Source: an uncultured Eubacteriales bacterium
GTDB lineage: Bacteria; Bacillota; Clostridia; Oscillospirales; Oscillospiraceae
Length of the DNA: 40,425 nucleotides
Assembly (NCBI GenBank): GCA_900543085.1
Contig: UQQF01000016.1
Span: 1 to 40,425 of the forward strand
Reading direction: 5' to 3'
Within the stretch, counting starts at the first letter, position 1; each line of letters opens with the position of its first letter. The position numbers were made by a program, and so were the translations under genes. This document shows, piece after piece, positions 29,292-34,638 of this stretch. Below the pieces are notes generated by a model. The model was not told the DNA's origin, did no database searches, and saw only the letters and a list, made by a program, of their open reading frames with translations.

Positions 29292-29981
29292 TTACGCTTC
29301 CTCCTCGTACTTGTTGATTATAACCTCGTCTCCGCCCACACAAACATAGAGAGAGACGCGGTTGTCCGCGTTGAGAGCCGCCCACAGCTTGCCTGCAAGC
29401 CCGGCGGAGCTAAGCTCGGGCACCGCGACCTCCACAGGCTCGCCGTGGAAGCTGGGCAGCGGGTCGCCGAAGCCCTCGTAGGTGCTGATAAAGCGGCCTG
29501 CGCCGGGGACGGTCTGCTCATACTCGTAGAAGTACCTCAGGCAAGGCGCGCCGTCGGCCGTGCCGGCCTTGAGTATGGAGAGCTTGTAGCTCCCGTCCGG
29601 GCTGAGCAGGCCGGAGATGCGCGGCGTATAGTTGGGCGCGTCCGGCTCGAACTCCCGGCTGCGCAGCGCCTCGGCGAAAGTTCTGCCCTCGAGGAGGCAG
29701 TCACGCAGCGTGTCGGTCTGGTCGCCGTTGGTGACGATAAGTCCGCGTCCCACGCGGCGCACGGGGTGGTATATGATGAGGCTGGGGTCGGTCATCTTGC
29801 TCTCGTCATAGGCGCGGGTGCGGATGCCGTCGTCGGTCTTTTCAAAGACGCGGTTGCGGCTGTTGGCGCTCCTGCCCATGATGAAGTACGCCACGGCGCT
29901 CTTGCCCGAGGGCGTCATGCCGAGCATTATGCCGCGTCCCGGGTAGGGGCGCTCTGCCAGGTATTCAAAGAGGTCGATCAT
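29292..29981 (-). CDS. IMP cyclohydrolase, archaeal PurO-like family
   Basis: 229 residues. YPGRGIMLGMTPSGKSAVAYFIMGRSANSRNRVF at the N-terminus and PSLIIYHPVR and TNGDQTDT in the middle match the IMP_cyclohyd/PurO family, first known from archaea. It closes the ring of FAICAR to IMP. It starts in an ATGA overlap with purN and abuts the AICAR formyltransferase, so the last two steps are encoded by adjacent separate genes in place of bifunctional PurH. The family call rests on motif memory and on position. Confidence 0.85.
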   Translation of the reverse strand: MIDLFEYLAERPYPGRGIMLGMTPSGKSAVAYFIMGRSANSRNRVFEKTDDGIRTRAYDESKMTDPSLIIYHPVRRVGRGLIVTNGDQTDTLRDCLLEGRTFAEALRSREFEPDAPNYTPRISGLLSPDGSYKLSILKAGTADGAPCLRYFYEYEQTVPGAGRFISTYEGFGDPLPSFHGEPVEVAVPELSSAGLAGKLWAALNADNRVSLYVCVGGDEVIINKYEEEA

Positions 29982-33794: not shown

Positions 33795-34295
33795 TTAAGA
33801 ATTCAGCTTATCCTGAAGCGCCGCGTCCTTGGCCAGGGTGGCGGCGCACATGTCTTCTCTCATTTTGTCCAGCTTGGCGGCCAGCTCGTCATCGGCCGCG
33901 GCGAGGATCTCGGCGGCGAGGAGCGCTGCGTTCTGCGCCCCGTCGATGGCCACGGTGGCCACGGGGATGCCCGAGGGCATCTGCACGGTGCTCAGCAGGG
34001 CGTCCAGGCCGTCCAGCGTGCTGCTCTTTACGGGGATGCCAATGACCGGCAAAGTGGTGTTCGCGGCGAGCGCTCCGGCGAGGTGCGCGGCCTTGCCGGC
34101 GGCGGCGATGATGGCGCCGAAGCCGTTCTTGCGCGCGTTCACGGCGAACTCTCGAGCCTGCTCCGGCGTGCGGTGCGCGCTCATTACGCGAACCTCAACG
34201 CCTATGCCAAGCTCCTTGAGCTGCCTGACGGCCTTCTCCACGACCGGCCAATCGCTGTCGCTGCCCATGATGACGGCAACCTTTTTCTCTTGCAT
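33795..34295 (-). CDS. purE: N5-carboxyaminoimidazole ribonucleotide mutase (PurE, class I)
   Basis: 166 residues from ATG 34295, preceded by GGAGGAGAG. The signature GSDSDWPVVEKAVRQLKELGIGVEVRVMSAHRTPEQ has the catalytic SAHR. AAAGKAAHLAG and PVIGIPVKSS follow. It rearranges N5-CAIR to CAIR. No purK is seen in the window. It is the first structural gene of the operon; the hairpin and T-run just upstream (34309-34349) suggest attenuated transcription into it. Confidence 0.96.
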   Translation of the reverse strand: MQEKKVAVIMGSDSDWPVVEKAVRQLKELGIGVEVRVMSAHRTPEQAREFAVNARKNGFGAIIAAAGKAAHLAGALAANTTLPVIGIPVKSSTLDGLDALLSTVQMPSGIPVATVAIDGAQNAALLAAEILAAADDELAAKLDKMREDMCAATLAKDAALQDKLNS

Positions 34296-34308
34296 GCTCT
34301 CTCCTCCG

Positions 34309-34349
34309 AAAAAAGATGTCAAGGCCACGGCGCCGAGGCCGTGACCTTG
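34309..34349 (-). terminator. Attenuator-like terminator before purE
   Basis: On the minus strand a 12-bp stem (CAAGGtCACGGC with GCCGTGgCCTTG, one G-U pair) and a 6-nt loop at 34349-34320, then ACATC and a T6 run (34314-34309). It ends directly at the purE ribosome binding site, 11 nt after the leader ORF, so it must be read through for purine synthesis. The 5-nt gap before the T-run is slightly unusual. Confidence 0.7.
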
Positions 34350-34360
34350 CAATAAGCACG

Positions 34361-34453
34361 TTATTCTGCATACTCTCCGCCCATGAAAAGGGCGTACATC
34401 GGGAAGAAAAGGGCGCACTTATCCCCTATCCCAAGCGCTCGCAGTCGGGTCAT
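34361..34453 (-). CDS. Small leader ORF of the purine operon (30 residues)
   Basis: ATG 34453 to TAA 34361, with a strong AGGAGG (34468-34463) spaced 9 nt. The peptide starts MTRLRALGIGDK and ends FMGGEYAE, with a hydrophobic aromatic middle (CALFFPMYALF). It lies between the operon promoter and the attenuator hairpin, whose stem begins 11 nt after its stop codon. Translation or stalling here could change folding of the hairpin. It could instead be a functional microprotein. I recognise no family. Confidence 0.6.
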   Translation of the reverse strand: MTRLRALGIGDKCALFFPMYALFMGGEYAE

Positions 34454-34469
34454 GCGCACCGCCCTCCTT

Positions 34470-34515
34470 CGGTAGAGTATACATAGATTTTACCGTTTTC
34501 CGACGAAAAACACAA
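34470..34515 (-). promoter_or_regulatory. Purine operon promoter with inverted repeat
   Basis: On the minus strand: TTGTGT (34515-34510), 17 bp, TAAAAT (34492-34487). An inverted repeat CGGTA ... TACCG (34470-34474 and 34491-34495) spans the -10 box and start point and could be an operator. No purine riboswitch aptamer is visible. Confidence 0.5.
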
Positions 34516-34638
34516 CCTGTTTTCCCGCTTGCGAGAATTTTCGGATACTTACACAACTTTTGTCCCCCCACCGGCGCGGTTTATGCCGAAATTCACGTGG
34601 CCGCCGCCGTGTTCGCAGACTGTGCGGAAAACAGGCGC

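Follow-up and report, generated by a model that had tools for sequence, protein, structure and literature searches.

A short reading frame with a predicted polymerase pause precedes the purine operon in Oscillospirales relatives and suggests a ribosome-coupled attenuator

A 40,425-nt stretch of DNA from an uncultured Eubacteriales bacterium, referred to here as the window, carries a purine operon in the order purE-purC-purF-purM-purN-(purO-like)-purH-purD-purL, and between the promoter and purE, its first gene, lie a short open reading frame (ORF) and an intrinsic terminator. What does such a leader sense, and how could it choose between termination and transcription of the operon? Comparing the leader with those of its relatives, we propose, at a probability of about 0.5, that it is a transcription attenuator in which ribosome and polymerase are coupled, as in pyrBI, with a GTP-dependent pause.

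Re-examination of the window sequence confirmed every coordinate that a preliminary description had given for the leader (Table 1). All these elements lie on the minus strand, the transcript is expected to start near position 34480, and 11 nt separate the stop codon of the leader ORF from the hairpin.

Table 1. Features of the purE leader in the window
Feature	Position	Strand	Basis
-35 element TTGTGT	34515-34510	-	sequence; genus comparison
-10 element TAAAAT	34492-34487	-	sequence; 17 nt from -35
P1 long-range helix, 5′ strand TGTATACTCT	34474..34483	-	fold; pairs with 34376-34367
Leader ORF Shine-Dalgarno (SD) AGGAGG	34468-34463	-	sequence; purine-rich SD in genus rows
Leader ORF, 30 codons including stop, MTRLRALGIGDKCALFFPMYALFMGGEYAE	34361..34453 (ATG 34453)	-	start codon and frame comparison
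Match to RNA-polymerase pause consensus, GGGATAAGTGCG (G-11 G-10 T-3 G-2 C-1 G+1)	34414..34425	-	consensus PMC6062546
Anti-SD segment TGCGCCCTTTTC, pairs with SD region	34406..34417	-	predicted duplex; mostly made after the pause
P1 3′ strand AGAGTATGCA, within last ORF codons	34367..34376	-	fold; permutation test
Intrinsic terminator hairpin, 12 bp	34349-34320	-	terminator scan; core pairs kept in 13/13
Terminator T6 run	34314-34309	-	sequence; ACATC between hairpin and T6
purE	33795..34295 (ATG 34295)	-	NCBIfam TIGR01162, 199.5 bits; own SD after T6

To follow the leader through its relatives, we used a PurE genome scan of 80 loci, mostly from Clostridia, including Oscillospiraceae and Ruminococcus (three are labelled Treponema), in which L015 and L021 are the closest relatives of the window. 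The genomes of these two led to the 13 genomes that make up the window's genus. The genus alignment holds 13 leaders, from the window and 12 genomes, and leaves out the 13th genome (L115). All 13 leaders have equivalents of the sigma-A-like promoter described earlier, with a -10 element (TAAAAT, TAGAAT or TTAATA) 30–34 nt 5′ of the start codon and TTGWGT or TTGTTT 16–17 nt upstream of it (the best among four spacings tried); a promoter scan did not list the purE leader promoter (0 found). In a terminator scan of 2 kb the purE leader terminator was the sole find (1, against a shuffle mean of 1.5), so that the terminator taken by itself could be due to chance, unlike the comparative evidence. 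The hairpin core is retained in every one of the 13 leaders, as anticipated. RNAalifold adds two further stem pairs (TG with CA) around a bulged A, and with the stem thus extended the T-rich tract nearly abuts it. The terminator arms are also conserved as sequence, beyond their pairing (12 of the 13 genus leaders have CAAGGTCACGG, and several other genera have CAGGCTRTCTG-like arms), which exceeds what termination alone needs.

The surroundings of the leader have features of their own. Just 5′ of the purE promoter, a GTTGTTCAAGTATATGAAAATT-like block at 34532-34560 (minus strand) recurs across the genus, where 12 of 13 upstream regions contain TGAAAAT or CGAAAAT and L082 has TGAAAAAT; this block may serve as an operator or UP element. 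A long inverted repeat, GGGCATCC...GGATGCCC, lies in the leader of the divergent aminotransferase gene (PRK07324; 34680-34793, plus strand), ends close to that gene's ribosome site and has no Rfam match at gathering score. Within the operon, a purO-like gene for an IMP cyclohydrolase of archaeal type (29292-29981, minus strand; its 53.9 bits fall below the cut-off of 150) adjoins a stand-alone AICAR transformylase, in place of a bifunctional PurH.

Searches for known purine regulators gave little. An Rfam scan of the window returned no family at gathering score, with three chance-level matches only, and Rfam found nothing at any of 20 loci with leaders of the ORF type, in agreement with the earlier remark that no guanine-binding aptamer is evident. 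Across the 13 genus genomes, PurR_Bsub exceeded its cut-off in none (weaker partial matches occur in all, the best at 64.2 versus 258.7 bits), and the ZTP riboswitch had no match (150 candidates scored in 12 of the 13). Purine riboswitches are present in eight of these genomes, on contigs other than that of purE.

The arrangement is widespread among relatives. Of 400 genomes sampled from the family, 311 have purE, and leaders were taken for the best 147 of these 311 PurE matches. Altogether 231 distinct related purE leaders fall into 64 with an ORF and terminator, 60 with a ZTP riboswitch by pattern and 107 with neither, so the leader ORF beside a terminator, first described at a single locus, recurs ahead of many purine operons. 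The ORF-plus-terminator detector matched 1 of 462 shuffled leaders and none of the 60 ZTP leaders, and an Rfam scan confirmed ZTP at all 20 pattern-positive loci tested. In 31 of the 107 unclassed leaders an open frame ends close upstream of purE, and purE may therefore be internal to an operon there. Three detector matches judged coding or spurious (L001, L026 and L223) were removed before ORFs were counted; inspection by eye contributed four further ORFs (L042, L149, L186 and L215), six by-eye candidates were left out (L014, L016, L045, L053, L076 and L126), and L083 and L085 are second copies from the genomes of L015 and L021. Over 61 leaders of the ORF class the distance from stop to hairpin runs from -14 to +14 nt; as the detector allowed -14 to +24 nt, the upper bound is informative and the lower is not. 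By a 27-nt limit that comes from E. coli, a ribosome at the end of the ORF is within masking distance of the hairpin. These comparisons are strong evidence that the architecture of promoter, ORF and terminator is real and repeated across relatives. The leader was also sought elsewhere in the genome. A loose pattern for second copies matched in 12 of 13 genus genomes, and a reversed-pattern control also gave matches; among the matches listed, seven are true leaders, all at purE, and the remainder resembles background. The region before purB, inspected at 2 of 10 loci, has no leader of the purE type.

The genus leaders reveal which property of the ORF is kept. At the homologous start codon nine leaders have ATG, three TTG and one GTG; stops are absent from frame 0 in all 13, and present in frame 1 in 11 and in frame 2 in 4. 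The stop codon lies 11–12 nt from the hairpin in 11 leaders and 3–4 nt in two. On the evidence of start codons, SD and open frame, the ORF looks translated. Its peptide drifts: over codons 2–16, within the genus, pN/pS is 0.97 in frame 0, compared with 1.17 and 1.13 for the two alternative frames (0.99, 1.01 and 1.29 among the ten closest leaders). The open frame is thus preserved and the peptide is not, and on the near-neutral value a conserved leader peptide was rejected; the excess of synonymous over non-synonymous changes that the preliminary description had looked to was not found. Conservation is instead seen in individual bases. One block is notable, in which GCGCC keeps a constant distance from the start codon and bases are conserved regardless of codons: codon 10 is NGG (once GGA) with its first base free, and codons 13 and 14 end in C in all 13 leaders. 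In L115, the most distant genus member, the leader has an unrelated 40-codon ORF and a terminator, and its SD region GGAGGTGCAAAAAT is complementary to a later ATTTTTGCACCCTCC, save for one extra C.

A leader ORF ahead of a biosynthetic operon calls to mind classical amino-acid attenuation, in which a repeated control codon would be expected, but none is seen in the leader peptides. No run of one amino acid was found, as already remarked for the window, and the peptides of 55 cluster representatives resemble translations of the other two frames, save for a surplus of G, K, T and Y and a deficit of P. We consider this explanation hardly credible.

The conserved bases match a consensus of another kind. 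The extended pause consensus for RNA polymerase has been given as G-11G-10T-3G-2Y-1G+1 (PMC6062546); its core bases G-10 and Y-1G+1 are likewise given in PMC12288461, and PMC10268239 describes -10G, -1Y and +1G together with -9G, including one class in which T is as common as G at +1. The window leader matches this consensus inside the ORF, with the predicted paused RNA end at 34415, ORF nt 39. The 13 genus leaders match at six of six sites in 11 cases and at five of six in two, and in every one the predicted RNA end falls at ORF nt 39; a motif search recovered 11 of the 13, where 200 shuffles gave a mean of 1.0 and a maximum of 5. Outside the genus, GGN6TGYG occurs in 26 of 52 leader ORFs (shuffle mean 3.6, maximum 9), or in 24 of 48 without the four ORFs added by eye; the other 26 of the 52 have no six-of-six match. 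The enrichment is absent from ZTP leaders (8 of 60, against 6.1 shuffled) and not clear in unclassed leaders (12 of 107, against 8.6), and in 81-nt segments of coding DNA the motif was found in 49 of 930 from purE-gene DNA and 150 of 2,878 from DNA behind purE. The spacing has a peak as well: a gap of 6 matches 21 of 44 non-genus cluster representatives, gaps of 5 and 7 match 11 and 10, and gaps of 2–4 and 8–11 match 3–8, with shuffles at about 3. Among the genus representatives (n = 11), gap 6 matches nine, gap 5 eight and gap 7 seven, the near equality being due to a G run.

The motif is found in all three reading frames, and the conserved ORF signal reads as a predicted RNA-polymerase pause that is independent of reading frame. 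The published accounts of the consensus concern E. coli (PMC6062546, PMC6336406); the consensus pause is reported to be conserved among diverse bacterial polymerases (PMC6336406), and NusG of B. subtilis prefers a different motif, TTNTTT (PMC12288461). Downstream of the pause match, leaders outside the genus (L116, L132, L140, L172, L198 and others) usually have NCCAAA directly 3′ of it, and at 23 non-genus sites C occupies +3 in 16 and A occupies +5 in 19.

The same nucleotides could be taken for a site on the peptide. In other genera a block GGN NNN NNT GYG NCC AAA stands late in the ORF, in 13 of 26 rows beginning exactly 9 codons ahead of the stop, and encodes a G-x-x-[A-like]-[PSTA]-[KN] string. 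Together with short ORFs that end just 5′ of a terminator, this string would suit an arrest peptide whose nascent chain binds a ligand of the purine pathway, of the type exemplified by TnaC. The third positions of the string, however, are nearly fixed (G 22/25, C 24/25; Lys always AAA), in rows picked by an amino-acid pattern that constrains first and second codon positions and not the third. Pause-like nucleotides are present in all three frames, and purifying selection on the peptide was not found in the genus, which makes an arrest peptide quite improbable. Peptide drift and a frame-independent pause match argue against a nascent-chain ligand and favour coupling of transcription and translation; from the signals first suggested for the leader this leaves a nucleotide or the rate of translation. 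The accompanying idea, that peptide-coupled termination is a different form of purine control, is supported as regards a leader ORF beside a terminator and not as regards a conserved peptide.

GGN6TGYG could also mark an internal start site, from which PurE would be extended at its N terminus through the terminator (ORF 33795-34418); in the window the purE frame is indeed open from a GTG at 34418. This we regard as very improbable, given that C occupies -4 in 3 of the 23 sites outside the genus, that Y-1 and G+1 would be left unaccounted for, and that the open frame varies between 168 and 237 aa in the nine closest relatives.

As the motif had first been noticed in the first-set sequences, only a held-out test is free of that bias. 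The test was fixed beforehand and used an order-level sample of 106 loci, of which 102 were distinct once the duplicates L280, L314, L343 and L349 had been taken out; L281, known from before, was excluded as well. The unchanged detector classed these 102 leaders as 17 ORF, 46 ZTP and 39 neither, with no matches among shuffles (two for each leader); one of the 46 ZTP leaders passed the ORF detector too. The six-of-six motif was found in 8 of the 17 ORFs (shuffle mean 1.3, maximum 5 in 200 shuffles) and was missing from nine, again in all three frames and with gap 6 the highest, and the controls gave 4 of 46 ZTP leaders (3.3 shuffled) and 5 of 37 unclassed leaders (2.5 shuffled). Three of the eight matches, in L317, L322 (near copies of each other) and L331, are related to first-set L039 and L019, both of which are without a six-of-six match, and this reduces our confidence. 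Excluding relatives of the first set, the motif remains in 5 of 14 held-out ORFs, a count reached by 2 of 1,000 shuffle sets. Distances from the held-out sites to the end of the ORF range from 12 to 56 nt, and the sites are less regular than those of the first set.

The RNA structure of the leader bears on how a ribosome might gain access to the ORF. In all 13 genus leaders the SD region is predicted to form a duplex, at -13.8 to -23.9 kcal/mol, with the TGCGCC segment that lies at the predicted pause and 3′ of it. Mean SD openness in the genus is 0.135, compared with 0.251 for shuffled ORFs (p 0.016), with three of the 13 (L081, L015 and L021) contrary in that their SD is not less open. As a general rule SD sequestration was rejected: outside the genus it reaches p 0.10 (54 leaders, including L083 and L085), in addition to the three exceptions within. 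The P1 helix joins the 5′ leader to the end of the ORF, and P1 partners pair better than swapped ones in the genus (319 of 20,000 permutations were as good). A helix between the 5′ leader and the ORF end is likewise unsupported as a general rule, with a median z of 0.04 over 41 non-genus leaders, 2 of 41 at p ≤ 0.05.

These folds could instead belong to an undescribed riboswitch, with the P1–P3 structure as aptamer and the ORF incidental. The window leader folds better than its shuffles (z -3.2 with the terminator and -2.2 without), and the matching of P1 across genus members would suit such an aptamer. By eye, however, no pairing alternative to the terminator is apparent, start codons and frame are preserved in the genus, the P1-type helix is missing outside it, and RNAalifold on the automatic genus alignment did not recover P1, retaining a few pairs of the SD hairpin and the terminator. 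A riboswitch of this kind is improbable.

From these sequences we infer polymerase pausing and GTP sensing at the leader, and the coupled attenuator would work as follows. In the window's genus, polymerase would pause at ORF nt 39, when the ribosome site would be just outside the polymerase and the anti-SD still unavailable. About 14 nt of RNA is held inside a paused polymerase, so that at nt 39 the SD would be free and the anti-SD would not, making the pause a boarding stop for a ribosome. GTP would be the nucleotide required for exit from the pause. With purines scarce, a long pause would let a ribosome load and trail the polymerase closely; standing at the stop codon as the terminator emerges, it would block the hairpin, and the purine operon would be transcribed. 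With purines plentiful, polymerase would escape early, the anti-SD and P1 would sequester the SD, no ribosome would follow, and transcription would terminate. Low GTP would thus bring a long pause, a ribosome aboard and readthrough, the correct sign for purine synthesis. Two points count against this scheme: a hairpin 11–12 nt past the stop, as in most genus leaders, lies at the edge of the cover of a ribosome on the stop codon, and the polymerase of B. subtilis tends to outpace ribosomes.

Published work describes several of these steps elsewhere. GTP ends the consensus pause, with a bypass fraction in vitro of about 22% at 100 µM and 7% at 10 µM (PMC6336406). With a stop codon placed 5 bp before the tR2 terminator, about 90% termination fell to less than 10%, uncoupling translation removed this repression of the terminator, and in E. 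coli the ribosome no longer represses a terminator past 27 nt (PMC4824070). The same source holds it unlikely that a ribosome catches polymerase within the first 100 bp, except at pausing sites as in pyrBI.

All the architectural evidence would fit equally well a coupled attenuator in which the pause merely synchronises and translation itself is sensed, through initiation rate, ribosome supply or ppGpp, and the SD/anti-SD hairpin of the genus could make ribosome loading limiting. Low GTP would be expected to slow initiation, however, which gives the wrong sign unless another signal dominates, and we think this version rather unlikely. For the GTP-dependent pause, two broader claims can be made tentatively: that one frame-independent pause in a throw-away ORF serves as a GTP meter and governs the purine operon in many Oscillospirales relatives, and, with similar reserve, that such a leader is the purine counterpart of pyrBI and substitutes for the ZTP riboswitch of relatives.

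If the proposal holds, a large group of gut bacteria would control purine synthesis through a race between polymerase and ribosome, without repressor or riboswitch. Bacillota are thought to be largely uncoupled; the leader would show coupling-based control there and offer a natural test of transcription-translation coupling in the phylum. It would also explain the near-exclusion of ZTP riboswitch and leader ORF (co-occurrence in 0 of 60 and 1 of 46 leaders). Elemental pauses are mostly held to be too brief for regulation (PMC12288461), and would gain a conserved regulatory job.

A search of the open-access literature found no report of such an ORF-plus-pause purine leader, and the available text of a structured-RNA survey that also reports uORFs gives none for purines (PMC6429828). 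Known systems resemble the purE leader in part. In related leaders the position ahead of purE is taken by the ZMP/ZTP riboswitch (RF01750), a ligand-binding RNA that almost never coincides with the ORF detector's matches. A purine nucleotide, ATP, is among the signals proposed for the mgtCBR leader of Salmonella. That leader likewise ties short ORFs to attenuation-like control (PMC3641672), but there stem-loops sensitive to ORF translation decide, whereas the purE leader shows no alternative pairing for its terminator, and the genes differ. In the tlrB leader of B. subtilis a programmed pause also buys time for leader-peptide translation before attenuation, but the pause is a NusG-dependent one at TTNTTT and the control is of a resistance gene and depends on tylosin; the vmlR leader is described as similarly complex (PMC12288461). 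The closest likeness is to the pyrBI attenuator of enterobacteria, in which there is a leader ORF, pausing sets the distance between polymerase and ribosome (PMC4824070), and the ribosome represses an intrinsic terminator ahead of the biosynthetic operon for the sensed nucleotide. The two differ in phylum and in pathway, pyrimidine there and purine here, and in the window's genus the SD is predicted to be locked by an anti-SD. The pyrBI attenuator senses UTP and its pausing is U-rich; the purE leader has GGN6TGYG with GTP next and no U-rich pause tract. With that tract absent and the nucleotide dependence inferred, the purE leader would work like pyrBI without being a member of its class: the kind of mechanism is known from pyrBI, and what would be new is its application to purines.
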